Assembly (NCBI RefSeq): GCF_017875765.1
Contig: NZ_JAGGNA010000001.1
Coordinates: 186,001-250,000, forward strand
Origin: Flavobacterium sp. CG_23.5
Lineage (GTDB): Bacteria; Bacteroidota; Bacteroidia; Flavobacteriales; Flavobacteriaceae
Direction of reading: 5' to 3'
Length of the DNA stretch: 64,000 nucleotides
How positions within the stretch are numbered: position 1 is the stretch's first letter; every line of letters starts with the position of its first letter. Shown piece after piece: positions 1,474-24,217 of the stretch. The position numbers and the translations under genes are program-made. The notes under the pieces were generated by a model that saw only the letters and a list, made by a program, of their open reading frames with translations, was not told the origin of the DNA and ran no database searches.

Positions 1474-2766
1474 TTAAACCGATAACCACAAGTTGCGGTA
1501 CACTCGCTTTTTATCATAATCATCGGCTTGCTTCTCGACATTGAAGTACCGATTTCCTCTTGGATCATTACCAACTCCAGCGATATATGCCCAATTTCCC
1601 CAATTGCTGCACACATCATAATCAATCAATTGTTGTTCGAAATACGCTGCGCCATAACGCCAATCTAACTCTAATTCGTTACAAAAATAACTGGCAACAT
1701 TTTGTCGTCCTCGATTACTCATAAAGCCAGTAAGCTTCAATTCAATCATATTAGCATCAATAAAATCATTCCCTGTTTTACCCTCTGTCCATTTTTGTAA
1801 TAGTTCTAAATTTATTGCTTTTGATTCTAATTTAGGTGTTTGAATTCCATTGAGCAAGAAATATTGCTGTTGGTGTTTTTTCATCATAAAACGAAAGTAG
1901 TCACGCCATAATAACTCAAAAACCAACCAATAGGTGGAGTCATTGGCTTCAAACTGCGTTTCGTATTTTTTTAGTTCTTGATAGATAAATCTTGGCGAAA
2001 TACAACCCATAGCCAACCACGCAGAAAATTTAGACGAATAATCAGCACCGACCATTTGGTTTCTGGTTTCTTTATAGTTTGAAATGCATTTAGATTTATA
2101 AAAATAATGATTCAAACGCTTTATTGCTGCGGATTCTCCACCTTTAAAACGGATTGCAGCTCTTTTGTCGATTGGTGTAAACTTCAAATTTAATGCTTGT
2201 AAAGAAGGTAAATTTAAAGACTTAATTTCTGGTGATTCAATGTGAGTTGGTGCCTCAAAAACTGTTCGAATCACTGCTTCTTTCTCGATTTTCTTTCTGA
2301 AATTGGTAAAGACCTCTGGAATATCTTTAATGGAAAAAGGTAAATCTTCTGCATGATACAAAGTGCTGGTGCTATATGTTTCTAGTTCGCATCGCACTTT
2401 GAAAAGTTCGGTTTGAACTAATAACTCTGTCTGTTTTTCTTCATAACAAACTTCTCTTTTTGCAAAAACTGTGGTTGCTTTGTATTGCTTAATCAGTTTA
2501 GGAATTTCAATTTCTGGTTTGCCATGAACTATCAGCAATCCTGAACCAATTGCTCTCAAATTTGAATCTAAGTTAATAAGAGATTCCATCAAAAATTGCG
2601 CTCTGAAACTTCCTGTTTTTTTAAATCCAAAATCAGTTGTTTCAAAATGGGATTCATCAAAACAATACACTGGAATAATGCTATCACTGTGCGAAATCGC
2701 TTTTACCAAGGTTTCATTATCGTGTAAACGTAAATCGGTTTTAAACCAAACTAATGCAGTTTTCAT
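1474..2766 (-). CDS. DASH-family cryptochrome
   Basis: Flavoprotein of the cryptochrome/photolyase superfamily, DASH clade; members repair cyclobutane dimers mainly in single-stranded DNA and may also signal blue light. The 430-residue product starts MKTALVWFKTDLRLHDN, the usual photolyase N-terminus. The FAD-binding C-terminal half shows SSKFSAWLAMGCISPR (244-259), SNRGRQNVASYF (350-361) and SNWGNW (387-392), all typical of DASH proteins. The ATG at 2766 is preferred over an upstream in-frame start at 2844, because it begins the Rossmann domain and overlaps the stop of the upstream gene by four bases (ATGA), implying translational coupling. It is the last gene of the photolyase operon. Confidence 0.93.
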   Translation of the reverse strand: MKTALVWFKTDLRLHDNETLVKAISHSDSIIPVYCFDESHFETTDFGFKKTGSFRAQFLMESLINLDSNLRAIGSGLLIVHGKPEIEIPKLIKQYKATTVFAKREVCYEEKQTELLVQTELFKVRCELETYSTSTLYHAEDLPFSIKDIPEVFTNFRKKIEKEAVIRTVFEAPTHIESPEIKSLNLPSLQALNLKFTPIDKRAAIRFKGGESAAIKRLNHYFYKSKCISNYKETRNQMVGADYSSKFSAWLAMGCISPRFIYQELKKYETQFEANDSTYWLVFELLWRDYFRFMMKKHQQQYFLLNGIQTPKLESKAINLELLQKWTEGKTGNDFIDANMIELKLTGFMSNRGRQNVASYFCNELELDWRYGAAYFEQQLIDYDVCSNWGNWAYIAGVGNDPRGNRYFNVEKQADDYDKKRVYRNLWLSV

Positions 2767-4298
2767 AATGTGTTTATGTTTTTTAAATAATAATCGGCTT
2801 GTTCTAATAAGGCAACTTTTGCTTCTGGCTTCATTTTTCTCCAAATGTTATACATCATTCCAATTCTAGGATTTTTACCTAATTTATCTTCATTCTGGTC
2901 ATAAAAATTCCAATATAAACTATTGAACGGACATGATTTTTCTCCAGTTTTAATTTCCTTTTTATAAAAACAACTTCCGCAATAATGACTCATTTTATCG
3001 ATATAAGCTGCTGAACTTACATACGGTTTTGTACCTACAATTCCGCCATCGGCAAATTGACTCATACCGCGAGTATTGGTAATTTCAACCCATTCAATCG
3101 CGTCAATATAGATTCCCAAATACCAAGCATCTATTTCGTCTGGATGAATTCCGGCTAAAAGCGCAAAATTTCCTGTGATCATCAATCGCTGAATGTGATG
3201 CGCATAAGCAAAGTTTAAGGATTGATTTATAGCATCTTTGAGACAATTCATTTTTGTTTTTCCCGTCCAAAACCAATCCGGTAATTTTTCCTGATTGTTG
3301 AAAAAATTCATCGTGGCATACTCGGGCATTTTGAGCCAATAAATTCCTCTCATGTACTCACGCCATCCAATTATTTGTCGCACAAAACCCTCTAGTTGAT
3401 TGTATTCAATTTCGTCAGGTCGTTTTTCCCATTCTTTTATGGCGCTATCAATAACTTCTTGTGGTGAAATCATTTTTAAATTCATAGAAAATGAAATTCG
3501 AGCATGGTATAAAGACCATTCGTTTGGCGACATAGCGTCTTGATAACTTCCAAATAAAGGCAAACATTCAACAAGAAAAAAATCTAATAATTCTAAGGAT
3601 TGTTTTCGGTTAATTGGCCAAACAAAACTAGCTTCGTCAATATTCCCGATTGTTTTAATATCGGTTTTCTTAATTTGATTTAAAATTTCACGAACATCAT
3701 TGTTAAAAACTAACGGTGGTGTAGCTTTATGATTTTTGGGTAGTTTTTTACGGTTTTCACTATCATAATTCCATTTTCCTGTTAGTGGTTTATCGCCTTC
3801 CATCAAGACTTCATGCTTTTTTCGGAGCATACGATAAAAACTTTCCATCAAAAAGGTTTTCTTTCCTTCAAAAAAATCACCTAATTCATTTCGGGTAGTA
3901 AAAAAATGTTCCGAATCAAACACTGTATTTGAGATCGAGATTGATTGGCAAAGGTTTTTTAAACAAACATCAACTCTATATTCGTCTGGAAGTTGGTATT
4001 CAAAATGAGTGAAATTGTGCTTTGAAACTAGATTTTGTATGTTTTTTTCAAATGATTGCAAGTTATTTTCATCATTTAAATGAATATAAATCACTTGGTG
4101 ATTGTTTGATTTTAATTCCAAATAAAAAGATTGCATTGCCGAGAAGAAACCAACTATTTTCTGAATGTGATGCGTTGCATAATCAGTTTCAGAACGAATT
4201 TCCATCATCACATAAGTAACCGAATCATCTACGGATTTAAACCAGGAGTGATTGCTGTTGAGTTGATCGCCAAGAATTAATCGTACCGTTTTGTTCAT
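2763..4298 (-). CDS. Iron-sulfur bacterial cryptochrome/photolyase (FeS-BCP, PhrB-like)
   Basis: Member of the deoxyribodipyrimidine photolyase-related family (FeS-BCP or CryB/PhrB group), whose studied members repair (6-4) photoproducts and carry FAD, a lumazine antenna and a [4Fe-4S] cluster. The product is 511 residues from the ATG at 4298. Four cysteines match the cluster ligands of Agrobacterium PhrB in order and spacing: C352, C440, C443 and C456 here against 350, 438, 441 and 454 there. The N-terminus KTVRLILGDQLN is typical. An upstream in-frame GTG at 4325 would overlap the DUF2256 gene and is less likely. The stop overlaps the start of the DASH gene. Substrate is inferred from family, not shown. 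Confidence 0.93.
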   Translation of the reverse strand: MNKTVRLILGDQLNSNHSWFKSVDDSVTYVMMEIRSETDYATHHIQKIVGFFSAMQSFYLELKSNNHQVIYIHLNDENNLQSFEKNIQNLVSKHNFTHFEYQLPDEYRVDVCLKNLCQSISISNTVFDSEHFFTTRNELGDFFEGKKTFLMESFYRMLRKKHEVLMEGDKPLTGKWNYDSENRKKLPKNHKATPPLVFNNDVREILNQIKKTDIKTIGNIDEASFVWPINRKQSLELLDFFLVECLPLFGSYQDAMSPNEWSLYHARISFSMNLKMISPQEVIDSAIKEWEKRPDEIEYNQLEGFVRQIIGWREYMRGIYWLKMPEYATMNFFNNQEKLPDWFWTGKTKMNCLKDAINQSLNFAYAHHIQRLMITGNFALLAGIHPDEIDAWYLGIYIDAIEWVEITNTRGMSQFADGGIVGTKPYVSSAAYIDKMSHYCGSCFYKKEIKTGEKSCPFNSLYWNFYDQNEDKLGKNPRIGMMYNIWRKMKPEAKVALLEQADYYLKNINTL

Positions 4299-4299
4299 T

Positions 4300-4437
4300 T
4301 TATTTGTTGCTTCTGCATTTATCACTGCAATATTTTACTTCGTCCCACACTTTTTCCCATTTTTTGCGCCAAGCAAAAGGTTTGTTGCAAACGATACACG
4401 TTTTTGTTGGTAGGTTTTGCTTTTTTACACCTTTCAT
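4300..4437 (-). CDS. Small DUF2256 cysteine-rich protein (45 aa)
   Basis: A 45-residue protein read directly from the minus strand. It starts [20 protein letters not shown] and continues [21 protein letters not shown], ending RSNK. The paired motifs CxxC (C14, C17) and CxxxC (C37, C41) around a Trp/Lys-rich middle are the hallmark of DUF2256, which looks like a small metal-binding ribbon. It sits four bases after the DUF2071 stop, and its own stop is one base before the ATG of the FeS-type photolyase, so it is surely cotranscribed. The function of DUF2256 is unknown to me. Its position suggests a partner of the iron-sulfur photolyase, which is inference. Confidence 0.88.
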
Positions 4438-4441
4438 TTGT

Positions 4442-5155
4442 TTAGATTTTATTTCTTTTCCAATTGATTTCAATAGCAGAACCTTCGGCTAAAAATATAG
4501 ATTCGGGTTGTGTTTTATCTAAAACAGCAAAATCTTTTCCGTACATGGTTTCAAAATCGCAATCTATTTTATACGCTACGATTTCATTAATTAGCCAACT
4601 AGGATGCGCAATTTGATATTCTTCTGTAATCGTGTTATTGAATTTTGTGTAACCATAATAATGTTCAAAAATGAAGCTTTCAAAACTACTTTTCTCCATT
4701 GTCTTTTTCTCTTTCAACGCTGATAACGCGATACTATTCCACTTCTTATTAACCAGCCATTCGTATTTTATTTCTTTTTGTTCCTTGGCAAAATCCCAGC
4801 TATGTCGTGTTGGTATAGTTGTATAATGTTCTTTATACAACGCATTTGCTAACCACGCAACGGCTTTATATGGAACGGTTTCGTTTATAAAAACAACACC
4901 TCGCCTGGTTTTATTCCCCACTTTCCTAGAAACATAAAACCGTAAATTAATTTCTTCAAAAGTTCCGAATCTATATATTGGGACATTAAATATTTTAGTG
5001 TTTTTAAACATAAACCCGACTAAACTAACATAAGCTTTGTCATTATATAAATCTATTGTCACGCCTTTTGGTAAATATTTGGACAGAATTGCTGTAGATA
5101 TTTCATAATTTGCCATTACAATATTTTCCCAATTGGCTTTTAAAAACACACTCAT
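4442..5155 (-). CDS. DUF2071 (YqjF-like) protein
   Basis: A 237-residue soluble protein of the DUF2071/YqjF family (function unknown; a fold related to acetoacetate decarboxylase has been proposed for the family). Visible family-like segments are the N-terminal [15 protein letters not shown] and [21 protein letters not shown], followed by [16 protein letters not shown] and [10 protein letters not shown]. No signal peptide or membrane segment is seen. Its ATG overlaps the stop of the upstream photolyase-like gene (ATGA), and its stop is four bases from the DUF2256 start, so it is an internal member of the photolyase operon. Its tie to light repair rests on gene order only. Confidence 0.87.
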
Positions 5156-6657
5156 TTTAATTTCTTTTTTATTTGTTTACTTCTGGAAACAGCTTTCGAG
5201 CTATTTACATGTTTTGCTAAAATTCGTTTTCCTTCTTCTTTGACATCGTCCTGCTTGCGAAAACTCCATACAATATCACTTGCCTGTTTTCTAGTTTCTT
5301 CAATATTTACGATTGGTTGCGGATAATCTTTACCTATTTCACAATTATAAAATTGTTGTTCAATGGCGTTCAATTTCCAAGGTTCGTGAATTAATGCTAC
5401 TGGAATTTCAGCTAATTCAGGCAACCATTGTTTTATGAAAATACCTTCTGAATCATGTTCTTCTGAATTTTTTATAGGACTGTAAATCCGAATGGTATTA
5501 ATTCCCGTAGTTCCGGATTGCATTTGTAATTGAGGATAATGAATTCCAGGTTCATAATCTAAAAACTGTCTTGCCAGAAAGTGTAATTCGCGCCAATCTT
5601 GCCACAAATTGAAAGTAAAAAACGAAACCACCATAGCTCGCATTCTAAAATTAAGATAACCCGTTGTGACCACACAGCGCATACAAGCATCCACAATTGG
5701 AATACCCGTTTTGCCTTCTTGCCACGCTTTTATGTAAACTTCATTTTTAGGTTTCACTAATGAATCGTAGGCTTTGTTGATATTTTCAAATTCCATTCGG
5801 CATTCATCTTCAAATTTTTGAATAAAATGACAATGCCAATGCAATCGAGAAACAAAATTTAGTATCGCTCTTTTGTTGGACGAATTTTCATAATGCTGAT
5901 TGGTATATTGGTAAATCATTCGCATGCTGATGTTTCCATAAGTCAAATAAGGTGACAATCTGCTGCACCCTTTTCTACTTAAACTAGGTTTGGAAATGTG
6001 TTTGCTGTAATTTACATAACGTTCCTTCACAAAACTGTCTAAATAGCGCCACGCCCAATGTTCGCCACCATGCTGAAAGTTCTTATTGCGAGTAGTAATT
6101 GCTTTTGGAAGTTCTTTTCCTTTGAATTTTGCATAAAAATCAGTTGCTAAAGTTTCAATTTTTAGAGAATTTATTTCGAAATTTAACGGAGTAGCGCGCA
6201 TTACATTTTCCCAACGCTTATCCCAATCGCTTCTGGATTTTAATTTCCGAATCACACCGTGCATTTGAGATTGTTTCCAATGAATCATATTTTTATCAAA
6301 AAAAGATTGCATAGTGATATCTCTATCGAAAGTAATTTTGTTGCCAATTTCTTGATGTGAAAAAACCGTTTTTACATCATAAACATTTAGTAATTCCTGA
6401 AAAACGGATTGCACCTCGTTGTGAAAATAGTAAATTTCAGTAGAGGCAGACTTTAATTTAGACTGCATTTCTTGTAATGATTCATAGACAAATCGCCAAT
6501 GACGCTCATCAGAATCATCATAAGACATCACTGATGGTTCAAAAAAACAAACTAAAAGAATGGGAATGTTTTCTTGTTGTGCCATAAAAAGTGGTTCGTG
6601 ATCTGTAAAACGCAAATCACGTTTGAACCAAACAATATTTATAGCTTTTTTATTCAA
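5152..6657 (-). CDS. Divergent cryptochrome/photolyase-family protein
   Basis: First gene of the photolyase operon; 501 residues. The N-terminal Rossmann domain ([18 protein letters not shown], residues 6-23) and the C-terminal FAD domain ([12 protein letters not shown] 233-244, [16 protein letters not shown] 312-327) place it in the cryptochrome/photolyase superfamily. It departs from classical class I enzymes in the flavin pocket. Where those have an Asn-rich loop followed by a WQW motif, this protein has [15 protein letters not shown] (368-382), so the FAD-proximal tryptophan appears to be missing, while the [10 protein letters not shown] segment keeps Trp. The C-terminus is Lys/Arg-rich (KQIKKKLK). 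It may be a separate photolyase clade or a photoreceptor; substrate unknown. Confidence 0.9.
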
Positions 6658-6921
6658 TTTTGAATTATTGATGTGATTTCTTTATCCGGTTTTTGTAATC
6701 TAATCGTTTTAATTGAAAGGTTTTATGAAAATTTTTTAAAACCTAAAAAGTGCTGATATTTGCTTTTCTTTATTTTTTCGAATCTATTTTTATTAGAAGT
6801 CCGAAGTAAAGAAACGCTTTTGAGTTGGGCGTAAGTATTATAAAATGAATACGATCTTGTCTTTCTAATTTTAAGAAAACAATAGTTTTAATGTATATTT
6901 TTTTGTTCTATTTTTGAATTT
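6658..6921. other. Intergenic spacer upstream of the photolyase operon
   Basis: 264 bases without a convincing reading frame. It must hold the promoter of the minus-strand photolyase operon and the end of the DUF2452 transcript, but I see no clear TAnnTTTG element and no strong hairpin with a T-run. Confidence 0.4.
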
Positions 6922-7341
6922 TTACGAAAAAATGATTTCTTTTTTGTTCAGTAGAATCCACTTTTTATCGCTGTTTAGTTTAAAAGTTCCTATATGTTCC
7001 TTATTCCATTCATTTGGACCAATTAATGAAAGAAAATTTATGCCGTCATCGCCTCTATATAAATGATAAATTTCGCCAACCACTGGTTCAAAAGAAAATT
7101 TAGAGTTGTAAACTAATTCATTCCACTCAAATTCTTCTATTAAATTTTGATACTGAAGTTTAAGCTCATTGAACTTACTTTCAAATTCTTTGTTTACATT
7201 ACTGATACCTCTACTTTTCCAAGAAACTACATCATCGATTCTAATTGCGGGCGCGCCAACACTTGTTGCATAAGGTAAAAGATTCGCATTATATCCTTGC
7301 TCTTCAGAATATACGATATTATCTGGTCTTTCTTTTTTCAT
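6922..7341 (-). CDS. DUF2452 domain protein
   Basis: A 139-residue cytoplasmic protein of the DUF2452 family, function unknown. Family-like segments are KKERPDNIVYSEEQGYNANL at the N-terminus, YATSVGAPAIRIDD, EFEWNELVYNSKFSFEPVVG and GEIYHLYRGDDG. The frame is open further upstream (to 7476), but the family normally begins just before the RPDNIV segment. The ATG at 7341 lies 19 bases after the stop of the DUF2805 gene, whereas the longer form would overlap that gene by more than 100 bases. It probably forms a two-gene operon with DUF2805, next to the photolyase island. Confidence 0.82.
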   Translation of the reverse strand: MKKERPDNIVYSEEQGYNANLLPYATSVGAPAIRIDDVVSWKSRGISNVNKEFESKFNELKLQYQNLIEEFEWNELVYNSKFSFEPVVGEIYHLYRGDDGINFLSLIGPNEWNKEHIGTFKLNSDKKWILLNKKEIIFS

Positions 7342-7360
7342 TATTGCTGAATAAATTTTA

Positions 7361-7651
7361 TTATCGCTTAGAAATTTTATTATTTGAGATTGCTCTTTGC
7401 ATATTGCATTTAAATCTGTCAATACCTTCAACGCGCTTGGCGAGGTGCTTCGTTTTGCAATTTTCAACTCGTTCACGCCATAATTTGTAGCTTCTAAATT
7501 TTAATTCTTTTTTCATTAAAGCCTTGACGTCGGCTTCTTTTAGTCCAAATTGAAAATAGATGGCTTCAAAAGGCGTTCGGTCTTCCCAAGCCATTTCGAT
7601 AATCCGATCTAGTGCTATTTCTGAAAGTTGAATTTCGGTAGTTGACTTCAT
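7361..7651 (-). CDS. DUF2805 / TIGR03643 family small protein
   Basis: A 96-residue protein matching the TIGR03643/DUF2805 family. It has a helix-rich N-terminus (IALDRIIEMAWEDRTPFEAI) that resembles a helix-turn-helix, then FGLKEADVKALMKKELKF, and a basic C-terminus (YKLWRERV...TKHLAKR). An earlier in-frame start exists at 7687, but the ATG at 7651 gives the usual family length. Function is unknown. From memory, family members often sit near photolyase genes, and here the gene precedes DUF2452 and the photolyase operon on the same strand. A small DNA-binding role is possible but unproven. Confidence 0.82.
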   Translation of the reverse strand: MKSTTEIQLSEIALDRIIEMAWEDRTPFEAIYFQFGLKEADVKALMKKELKFRSYKLWRERVENCKTKHLAKRVEGIDRFKCNMQRAISNNKISKR

Positions 7652-7816
7652 TATTTTGTTTAATCTTTTATTGATTTGATTCAACAAATTTAATGATTAA
7701 AAGTTTACGATGGTATATTCTTGATTTATATTTTGGAATAAAATATTTGAGGGAGATAAGATTGTCGATTTTGAATTTACTTTTGCTTTTTTTGATTAAT
7801 AGAAAACGTAGTAAAT

Positions 7817-7849
7817 GTATTCAGAAAAGAGAATTTCTTTTCTGAATAC
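7817..7849. repeat. Perfect intergenic hairpin
   Basis: GTATTCAGAAAAGA (7817-7830) and its exact reverse complement (7836-7849) flank a 5-base loop. It lies between the tamL stop and the DUF2805 start, both on the minus strand, so it may end the tamL transcript. There is no clean T-run on the minus-strand 3' side, so a classical terminator is not certain. Confidence 0.6.
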
Positions 7850-22443: not shown

Positions 22444-22478
22444 AAAAAACCGTTCGCCTGTGGTGAACGGTTTTTTTT
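22444..22478. terminator. Bidirectional terminator between dnaK and blh
   Basis: CCGTTCGCC and GGTGAACGG pair (one mismatch) around TGT, flanked by AAAAAA and TTTTTTTT. It lies between two convergent genes and just touches the blh stop codon. Confidence 0.88.
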
Positions 22479-23376
22479 ATGCGATTTTCGAATGCTTTTT
22501 ATGCGACATTTTCAGAATTACTAATACATGCGGAAACGTAATTGCTGCTAGAAAAGAGAAAAACAACCCGTTGAATATTTCCGTATCCCTAAACAGGAAA
22601 TAAAGAAGTCCGATACCCAGTAATGAGGCGAACCAATAGACAAAGCCATTCCTACAATACGCTATAAAATGGGTAAAAGTAAAAGAACCATGCAGATATT
22701 TTATTTGGTCTAAAATAGAAGGAATGCTATGCCAAATGATAAAGTAAATGGCAAAACCCCAAATTAAATCTGAAGTTTTAAATAATATTGCAAAAAGCAA
22801 AAGAAAAAACAATTCTCTTTCTAATTTTTTTCGAAAGGATTCAAATTTCCAATAAAAATAAACACTTAAACTTATAAAGATCAATCCGCTAATTATGAGG
22901 GTTTCATTTATATAGTAGGACGGAAGTTTAAATCTAATAATTTCTGTTACTATAATTTGGACTTCATTGATATGAAAGAAAAACAATAAGAACAAGAGAA
23001 CAATTCCGTATGTAAACGGGTAGAGAATAAGCAGCCATTTTGGGACATCAAAATCTAAATACAACCCTTGCTGATCGCCAAAATGGAACGCACTTACCAA
23101 AATGAATAATAGCAAGGCTAACACAGGTACTAAATAGAAAAGTAGTAACCCACTTAAAACTACCAGAACATAATATATTAGAATTTTTGTAAAGGAAAAC
23201 GCGTTTTTTGAATCGTTTGTATTCTTAATTAATAGCAAATCATTAGCCCCATGTAAAATTCCGAACGTAAAAATGAGTAAAAAACTAATGAATATTTGAA
23301 TTTCTTTAGGGAAAAAGGAGTTGAGCCACAAACAAAAAAAGCTTGCTACGATTGCGAAATTTGTATATTTAAGCAT
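22477..23376 (-). CDS. blh: Brp/Blh-type beta-carotene 15,15'-dioxygenase
   Basis: Inner-membrane enzyme that splits beta-carotene into two retinal molecules, the chromophore of proteorhodopsin. The 299-residue product from the ATG at 23376 has many hydrophobic helices and the family His motifs: FGILHGANDLLLI, SAFHFGDQQG, FIIWHSIPSILDQI and a late FPHVLVILKM. These histidines are thought to bind the catalytic iron. An in-frame start at 23421 would only add a short leader. It is divergent from the proteorhodopsin gene across a 115-base spacer, which makes the pairing functional beyond reasonable doubt. Carotenoid synthesis genes are not in the window. Confidence 0.94.
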   Translation of the reverse strand: MLKYTNFAIVASFFCLWLNSFFPKEIQIFISFLLIFTFGILHGANDLLLIKNTNDSKNAFSFTKILIYYVLVVLSGLLLFYLVPVLALLLFILVSAFHFGDQQGLYLDFDVPKWLLILYPFTYGIVLLFLLFFFHINEVQIIVTEIIRFKLPSYYINETLIISGLIFISLSVYFYWKFESFRKKLERELFFLLLFAILFKTSDLIWGFAIYFIIWHSIPSILDQIKYLHGSFTFTHFIAYCRNGFVYWFASLLGIGLLYFLFRDTEIFNGLFFSFLAAITFPHVLVILKMSHKKHSKIA

Positions 23377-23433
23377 GTTTGAATTAAGTTTGTTTAAAAT
23401 TAAGTAAAAATATTTTAACAAAATGTATTTTGT

Positions 23434-23456
23434 TTGTTTAACTTTTATTATATTTA
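23434..23456 (+). promoter_or_regulatory. Candidate proteorhodopsin promoter
   Basis: TATATTTA (23449-23456) matches TAnnTTTG in seven of eight bases. TTG triplets at 23430-23432 and 23434-23436 could form the -33 part. It lies 35 bases before the proteorhodopsin ATG, in the spacer shared with blh. Confidence 0.45.
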
Positions 23457-23491
23457 CTTCAACAAATAACCTTAACCTTTAAATTTAAATT

Positions 23492-24217
23492 ATGACAAAT
23501 TCTATGTTTATTACTATGTTGGTTGCAAAATTATCTCCTACAGATTATGTAGGATTTACTTTTTTCGTTGGTTGTATGGCTATGATGGCCGCATCAGCAT
23601 TTTTCTTTTTATCACTGAACCAATTTGACAAAAAGTGGCGTACTTCAGTCTTAGTTTCTGGTTTAATTACTTTTATTGCCGCAGTACATTATTTTTACAT
23701 GAGAGATTATTGGGCTTCGTTTGGAGAATCACCTACTTTCTTTCGTTATGTTGACTGGGTTTTAACGGTGCCATTAATGTGTGTTGAGTTCTATTTGATA
23801 TTAAAAATAGCAGGAGCTAAACAATCATTGTTATGGAAAATGATTATCTATTCATTAATAATGTTAGTTACGGGTTACTTTGGTGAAGCCGTAAATCCAG
23901 AAAATGCTCAAATTTGGGGATTAGTATCTGGAATAGCTTATTTCGCTATTGTTTACGAAATATGGTTAGGGCAAGCTTCTAAATTAGCTGCCGCTGCAGG
24001 AGGAAATGTTCTTGCCTCACACAAAATATTATGTTGGTTTGTACTTGTAGGTTGGGCAATTTACCCATTAGGATACATGTTAGGAACTGATGGATGGTAC
24101 ACGGGAATCCTTGGAAAAGGAAGCGTAGATGTCGCTTACAATATTGCTGATGCCATTAATAAAATTGGTTTTGGATTAGTAGTCTATAATTTAGCAGTAA
24201 AATCACAAGCTAACTAA
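23492..24217 (+). CDS. Proteorhodopsin, light-driven proton pump (green type)
   Basis: Seven-helix retinal protein that pumps protons out of the cell in light. The 241-residue product has every key residue. In helix C, RYVDWVLTVPLMCVEFYLIL gives the proton acceptor D88, T92 and donor E99 (the DTE motif of H+ pumps). H66 matches the His that partners the acceptor. D220 and the Schiff-base lysine K224 are in helix G. The spectral-tuning position is M96, equivalent to 105 in the reference proteorhodopsin, which in flavobacteria goes with green absorption. A TAnnTTTG-like promoter precedes it and a terminator follows. The retinal-making blh is divergent next door. Confidence 0.98.
   Translation: MTNSMFITMLVAKLSPTDYVGFTFFVGCMAMMAASAFFFLSLNQFDKKWRTSVLVSGLITFIAAVHYFYMRDYWASFGESPTFFRYVDWVLTVPLMCVEFYLILKIAGAKQSLLWKMIIYSLIMLVTGYFGEAVNPENAQIWGLVSGIAYFAIVYEIWLGQASKLAAAAGGNVLASHKILCWFVLVGWAIYPLGYMLGTDGWYTGILGKGSVDVAYNIADAINKIGFGLVVYNLAVKSQAN

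Follow-up and report, generated by a model that had tools for sequence, protein, structure and literature searches.

A compact photolyase island in Flavobacterium sp. CG_23.5 and a candidate light operator that it may share with rhodopsin, retinal and carotenoid genes

The window analyzed here is a stretch of 64,000 nucleotides from Flavobacterium sp. CG_23.5 (contig NZ_JAGGNA010000001.1, positions 186,001 to 250,000), the genome of which consists of one contig of 3.67 Mb. Gene calls and Pfam and NCBIfam matches identified a compact island of seven minus-strand genes that spans positions 7651 to 1474. Three of its products belong to the photolyase superfamily, one being a divergent protein designated dPHR, and the island is headed by an inverted repeat that is a candidate operator. 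Along the minus strand, the features are:

7655..7688, minus strand: operator candidate, a 34-bp inverted repeat with 1 mismatch that ends 3 bases ahead of the DUF2805 start codon
7361..7651, minus strand: DUF2805 (TIGR03643), 96 amino acids (aa); PF10985, 114.6 bits
6922..7341, minus strand: DUF2452, 139 aa; PF10504, 46.3 bits
6663..6821, minus strand: decayed flavin reductase gene, from blastn and tblastn against sister islands
5152..6657, minus strand: dPHR, divergent photolyase-superfamily protein, 501 aa, TTG start; PF00875 and PF03441
4442..5155, minus strand: DUF2071, 237 aa; PF09844, 164.5 bits; ATGA overlap with dPHR
4300..4437, minus strand: DUF2256, 45 aa; PF10013, 79.1 bits (cut-off 25); CxxC...CxxxC, zinc-finger-like
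2763..4298, minus strand: iron-sulfur (FeS)-type prokaryotic (6-4) photolyase, 511 aa; PF04244, 255.4 bits (cut-off 22.1)
1474..2766, minus strand: DASH cryptochrome, 430 aa; TIGR02765, 560.4 bits (cut-off 317.05); ATGA overlap with the FeS photolyase gene

The intergenic gaps from DUF2805 to DASH were recomputed as +19, +264, -4, +4, +1 and -4. An earlier note on this DNA had described five same-strand genes joined by ATGA overlaps or gaps of one to four bases, and the last four values confirm it. DUF2805 and DUF2452, which the note placed just upstream, are indeed present on the same strand but are separated from the five-gene block by 264 bp. The occurrence of three photolyase-superfamily types in one block was also borne out: in a 61-row tree dPHR, the FeS photolyase and DASH fell in three separate clades (100/100 each), the DASH clade consisting of the DASH rows and the rows labelled 'DASHmid'. 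Residues C352, C440, C443 and C456 of the FeS photolyase align with the cysteines of 7ykn and its YAHHIQ motif is conserved, while the scores of DASH and DUF2256 exceed the NCBIfam and the Pfam gathering cut-offs, respectively. Eighty named loci, numbered with an L, were fetched around DUF2256; they rank best among 569 confirmed matches. Five of the 80 repeat the order dPHR-DUF2071-DUF2256-FeS photolyase-DASH (L060, L061, L063, L073 and L082; a contig end cuts DASH in L063 and L082). This recurrence argues that the order is not due to chance, and the arrangement makes joint expression of the island genes likely.

Sister islands carry a flavin reductase gene (PF01613) between DUF2452 and dPHR. 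The 264-bp gap of the window retains the 3′ end of this gene and a short 5′ piece; the middle is gone and the frame is broken. By blastn, the 3′ relic is 74-78% identical to the 3′ ends of the L057 and L059 flavin reductase genes and the 5′ piece shares 83% identity with the 5′ part of the L059 gene over 36 bp; tblastn gave 52% identity over 25 aa (E 3e-4). The flavin reductase thus appears to belong to the ancestral island unit, and the unit delineated in the earlier note, which held neither this gene nor the operator, was incomplete. Another flavin reductase gene in the genome (C1:1846398-1847006), 44% identical to that of the sister islands, has an operator site ahead of it.

The inverted repeat, TTTGTTTA-N18-TAAACAAA (34 bp), was first seen in an upstream alignment of the sister islands; MAFFT placed the window site out of register, and the repeat was spotted on visual inspection and subsequently put to the test in scans. 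It occupies the same place before DUF2805 in L057, L059, L060, L075 and L077, and in L063 with 2 mismatches. Across 2.63 Mb of loci, with L001 (a copy of the window) left out, arms with at most 1 mismatch gave 23 occurrences at length 34 and 6 at length 35; the remaining 20 lengths in the range 24 to 45 yielded 8 altogether. A looser pattern gave 23 matches, one site being counted twice from overlapping loci, versus 0.6 after base shuffling, 2 when the sequence was reversed, 3.5 for a direct repeat and 3 for an outward one. For 23 of the 29 sites, the start of one of the following genes is at most 300 bp away (DUF2805, 6 including the window; crtI, 3; extracytoplasmic function (ECF) sigma factor, 3; carH, 2; SRPBCC, 2; blh/rhodopsin, 2; and single sites at DUF2256 in L016, DUF2256/DASH in L124, dPHR, TetR and flavin reductase). 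As the loci were fetched around DUF2256, these labels are not independent; in addition, sister species repeat one another. Length 34 gave 6 sites in the 1,280,002 scanned bases of the 3.67-Mb genome, whereas 31 other lengths averaged 0.8. The six lie before a fasciclin gene (C1:163290), before the island, between blh and rhodopsin (two sites), before crtI (C1:1359791), which is next to a gene for a CarH-type B12 photoreceptor, and before the flavin reductase gene (C1:1846329). Sites with two mismatches, which are near background (15 at length 34 versus about 10 elsewhere), were present where carH starts (C1:1360717) and ahead of the TetR gene that belongs to a second light cluster (C1:1347948). 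The blh and rhodopsin genes are divergent (window 22477-24217), with two operator copies between them:

22477..23421, minus strand: Blh/BCD beta-carotene 15,15′-dioxygenase (retinal synthesis), predicted to belong to the same regulon; longest open reading frame, overlapping an operator site, start approximate
23389..23422, strand not assigned: operator site on the blh side, 1 mismatch
23433..23466, strand not assigned: operator site, 1 mismatch, 25 bp ahead of the rhodopsin start codon
23492..24217, plus strand: microbial rhodopsin, predicted to belong to the same regulon

A candidate reader of these sites is a CarH homologue encoded in the same genome (C1:1359835-1360725), which has MerR and B12-binding domains; the second B12 domain (PF02310) is not listed for it. 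In alignment it matches CarH structures at the B12-site residues W, EH and H, which we take to have the B12-site roles, with the H as lower ligand; its nearest solved relatives include Thermus CarH (56 bits). A site lies at most 400 bp downstream of carH in five of the six loci with a full carH, and three also have one at the carH start. LitR/CarH proteins are repressors released by light through adenosylcobalamin (AdoB12) (PMC6739363). The second light cluster (C1:1341000-1360000, locus L002), a carotenoid cluster, has the arrangement TetR-ABC1-dPHR paralogue (50% identical)-SDR-FolE together with a class I-like photolyase gene. Before this second dPHR copy lies a decayed DUF2256 (23.1 bits, broken frames; L002 8980-9140, C1 about 1349997-1350068), and the sister loci L008 and L009 have DUF2256-DASH-dPHR-DUF2805 intact; for this reason, the compact island of the window may have replaced the genes lost from the second light cluster.

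To follow the small proteins, the same 148 Bacteroidota genomes were searched for each family and 200 Pseudomonadota genomes made up a second survey. Genome G011 (DUF2256 below cut-off), genomes G021 and G025 (weak DUF2805 paralogue only), second DUF2805 copies, dPHR matches below 270 bits (other photolyases) and, in neighbourhood counts, anchors below 60 bits were left out; survey counts of 'other photolyases' are lower bounds, among the matches listed. DUF2256 was found in 49 Bacteroidota genomes, the FeS photolyase in 49 and both in 46 (odds ratio 491, p 6e-31); by genus the numbers were 33 and 34, with 31 in common, of 82 genera. Among the Pseudomonadota, 36 genomes had DUF2256, 38 the FeS photolyase and 31 both (odds ratio 139), and the FeS family was present in 29 of 38 further genomes picked for a DUF2256 outside the phylum or not adjoining an FeS photolyase gene. 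In 59 of the 80 named, 35 of 47 survey and 18 of 34 Pseudomonadota loci, a photolyase-superfamily gene is found no more than 3 kb from DUF2256. The FeS photolyase gene is at most 200 bp away in 35 of the 80, and in other loci DUF2256 is paired with dPHR or DASH rather than with the FeS enzyme. The association of DUF2256 with photolyases is close but not exclusive. No link between the two was found in a literature search that covered few subscription journals.

DUF2256 has four conserved cysteines and has been assigned to the TRASH clan (PMC4047054). A sequence search against solved structures for its fold gave no significant match, the best being ribosomal L24 (E 0.12). Four Pseudomonadota open frames (355-578 aa) were considered as DUF2256 fusions and rejected, being long high-GC frames with the 40-residue domain terminal; there was no photolyase fusion among them. 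DUF2256 may be a small zinc-binding adaptor for nucleic acid or protein that serves the FeS photolyase and also dPHR.

DUF2805 follows a similar pattern. DUF2256 is present in 37 of the 41 DUF2805 genomes, or 37 of 43 when two genomes with only a 76-bit paralogue are included, and DUF2805 recurs with FeS photolyases. A structural model has four helices and is helix-turn-helix-like, fold searches giving weak matches only, and a conserved C-terminal tail, RFKC..QR.ISNNKISKR, extends beyond the Pfam domain. A weaker DUF2805 paralogue (77 bits) was observed in the same genome at C1:1521017-1521241 (L055), with no photolyase gene adjoining in the fetched stretch, and also in several genomes of the genus. 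The other two families behave differently. In the 148-genome survey, DUF2071 and DUF2452 each lie within 10 kb of DUF2256 in 1 of 17 genomes having both, the sole case being the window. DUF2452 sits between DUF2805 and the flavin reductase gene in L057, L059, L060, L063, L075 and L077, and DUF2071 precedes DUF2256 in L060, L061, L063, L073 and L082; both are linked to photolyases only in the compact-island lineage. They may be passengers of this lineage, a reading weakened by the unlinked co-occurrence of DUF2452 with DUF2256 in 17 of 18 DUF2452 genomes. The earlier note had proposed a coordinated light unit in which all four DUF proteins take part. The conserved light-related unit stands, with an inverted repeat common to rhodopsin, retinal and carotenoid genes, and DUF2256 and DUF2805 are non-randomly placed in relatives, but the inclusion of DUF2071 and DUF2452 in the unit is not supported. 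A testable partner and setting are thereby offered for DUF2256 and DUF2805, families without an assigned role.

Class I cyclobutane pyrimidine dimer (CPD) photolyases have the catalytic residues Glu274, Asn341, Met345, Asn378 and Trp382 (E. coli numbering). In a profile alignment with 11 class I-like sequences, the E. coli protein itself not being among them, dPHR has R271, F337, A341, H373 and L377 at these positions. R271, F337 and H373 are invariant across 36 sequences; M379 is a further invariant residue of dPHR. The PF00875 domain occupies residues 8-133, and dPHR scores under every listed NCBIfam photolyase cut-off (best 150.7 bits versus 506 for NF007955; 135.6 versus 884.6 for TIGR03556). 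A class I CPD photolyase was therefore rejected as an identity for dPHR, its scores being far below the curated cut-offs and the catalytic residues replaced. The bifunctional CPD/(6-4) photolyase PhrSph98 has key residues E310, N384, M388 and N412 (PMC9649867), and dPHR differs at the equivalent positions as judged from the class I mapping, the PhrSph98 sequence itself lying outside the alignment. Orthologues of dPHR (at least 270 bits) were present in 20 of the 148 genomes, and DUF2256 and the FeS photolyase were both present in all 20; the nearest dPHR rows in the tree are Flavobacterium. Four plasmid regions were opened, two selected by dPHR and two by DUF2256. The dPHR gene overlaps an annotated DUF2256 gene on a Salinivibrio kushneri plasmid, and TIGR03643, dPHR and flavin reductase lie inside 4 kb on a Vibrio pelagius plasmid. 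By alignment and tree, dPHR is a separate clade or class in which the predicted catalytic positions hold different, invariant residues, and it is probably not an ordinary CPD photolyase. It points to a class of the photolyase superfamily with replaced yet invariant catalytic residues.

We consider it fairly probable, from the arrangement of genes and sites, that the island is a light-induced photorepair operon controlled by CarH. In the dark, the AdoB12-bound CarH homologue would sit on the 34-bp sites and repress; light would free CarH, and repair enzymes, flavin reduction, carotenoids, retinal and rhodopsin would rise together. By analogy with the known families, the FeS enzyme would repair 6-4 photoproducts and DASH would act on CPDs in single-stranded DNA. 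The distribution of the repeat suggests a single light switch for sunlight capture, sun protection and repair. That CarH binds the predicted site is something we infer, as are the roles given to DUF2256 and dPHR. A wider reading, taken as a whole, is more tentative, and we give it somewhat less than an even chance. An operator read by a B12 photoreceptor would unite rhodopsin and retinal, carotenoids, flavin reduction and photorepair; dPHR would be a light-driven flavoenzyme of its own kind, its active site rebuilt (an invariant His at the position of the flavin N5 Asn and no proximal Trp); and the zinc-finger protein DUF2256 would serve dPHR and the FeS photolyase.

Several points weigh against these proposals, among them the extent of the own-genome scan (1.28 of 3.67 Mb) and the dependence among the loci mentioned above. 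Six of the 29 sites with at most 1 mismatch are not beside a gene that could be linked to light (L012, L054, L107, L114, L116 and L125), and a perfect copy at C1:163290 (L183 2649-3324) precedes a fasciclin-domain lipoprotein-like gene. No site was found in L079, where carH is at the end of the fetched stretch. The Pseudomonadota loci (446,535 bases) had none either, and this type of control is therefore not a general one. A scan for sigma-70-type promoters gave 31, versus a shuffle mean of 31.6, with no excess, and terminators in the same scan were not in excess over shuffles. The model search for photolyases matched in none of the flanks, up to 6 kb, of 35 viral contigs that encode DUF2256 (L235-L269, IMG/VR); in the three contigs checked (L239, L243 and L263), DUF2256 was confirmed to adjoin phage genes (exonuclease VIII, terminases). 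No photolyase is annotated near DUF2256 in the Erwinia and Spirosoma plasmid regions, PLSDB annotation being incomplete.

The repeat could instead be bound by a regulator other than CarH, for example a TetR_C_23-type repressor; the regulon would then be real and the sensor not B12-based. TetR proteins bind inverted repeats, a TetR gene adjoins the sites in L002, L008, L009, L010, L100 and L102, and the opening gene of the light cluster in this family encodes a TetR_C_23-type repressor. However, the carH-adjoining sites in L030, L037 and L103, from other families, have no TetR match in the locus maps (a TetR gene may lie elsewhere in the genome), and the carH start has a site in L008, L009 and L103, and a 2-mismatch one in the Flavobacterium sp. 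CG_23.5 genome; we regard this alternative as unlikely. Ordinary clustering, in which redundant photorepair genes were stacked by horizontal transfer with the DUF genes as hitchhikers and no system beyond co-transfer, seems to us very unlikely. It accords with the lack of linkage of DUF2071 and DUF2452 elsewhere, with the differing composition of the island among loci and with the plasmids that carry dPHR or DUF2256 genes, but not with the co-occurrence of DUF2256 and the FeS photolyase in two phyla, even when the genes are far apart, or with an operator of fixed spacing at the island head.

As for DUF2256, its four conserved cysteines and its strongest association, which is with the FeS enzyme, would suit a factor that handles metal or FeS clusters for that photolyase, as opposed to an adaptor for nucleic acid or protein. 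E. coli is presumed by us to lack DUF2256. A cyanobacterial FeS photolyase produced in E. coli has its cluster and activity (PMC9178010). This makes an essential role of DUF2256 in cluster maturation less likely and is also among the points against the main reading. Since viral contigs carry DUF2256 without a photolyase, a general small adaptor is favoured over an FeS-specific factor; the pairing with dPHR or DASH at other loci also speaks against a metal-handling role, which we judge improbable.

The photorepair operon proposed here resembles known systems in part. Compared with the FeS bacterial cryptochromes and photolyases (FeS-BCP), or prokaryotic (6-4) photolyases (PDB 7ykn/8a1h, 4dja PhrB and 3zxs CryB), the window FeS photolyase scores 557.8 bits to 7ykn over residues 4-510 and keeps the four cysteines and the HH; it differs in being operon-coupled with dPHR, DASH and DUF2256. 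LitR/CarH-type regulons likewise place light-induced photolyase, FolE, cryptochrome-like and unannotated genes under a MerR-type regulator, as in the Pseudomonas putida class II LitR (PplR) regulon, which controls photolyase, FolE and cryptochrome-like genes (PMC9758184), and the Vibrio cholerae MerR/ChrR light regulon (PMC5241685). FolE is found here in the sister light clusters. In contrast to those regulons, rhodopsin and blh also fall under the predicted operator here, and the regulator and operator pair is from another phylum. In Synechococcus PCC 7335, an operon with two photolyases is claimed by its authors to be, to their knowledge, the first ultraviolet B (UV-B)-inducible one (PMC9649867). 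Its photolyase genes overlap in one operon, as in the island, which in contrast has three other classes, DUF2256, DUF2805 and a predicted light operator. The mechanism of light control in Bacteroidota has been called unknown (PMC7064467). The repeat is a concrete DNA site by which rhodopsin phototrophy and photorepair could share one light switch in this phylum.

Short photolyase-like proteins (SPLs) were reportedly described by Xu et al. in 2021. The possibility that dPHR is an SPL was rejected because dPHR has an N-terminal domain, which SPLs are without. SPLs are named in PMC9178010 and PMC9649867, and their genes lie beside DUF2256 or the FeS photolyase gene in 14 of the 80 named loci. Short photolyase-like genes with FAD_binding_7 only (about 370 aa) recur beside DUF2256 and FeS photolyase genes in L022, L003, L021, L025, L035, L037 and others. 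Finally, TamL and the island are separated by a stretch with a hairpin of 15 pairs (7817-7849), possibly a two-way terminator.

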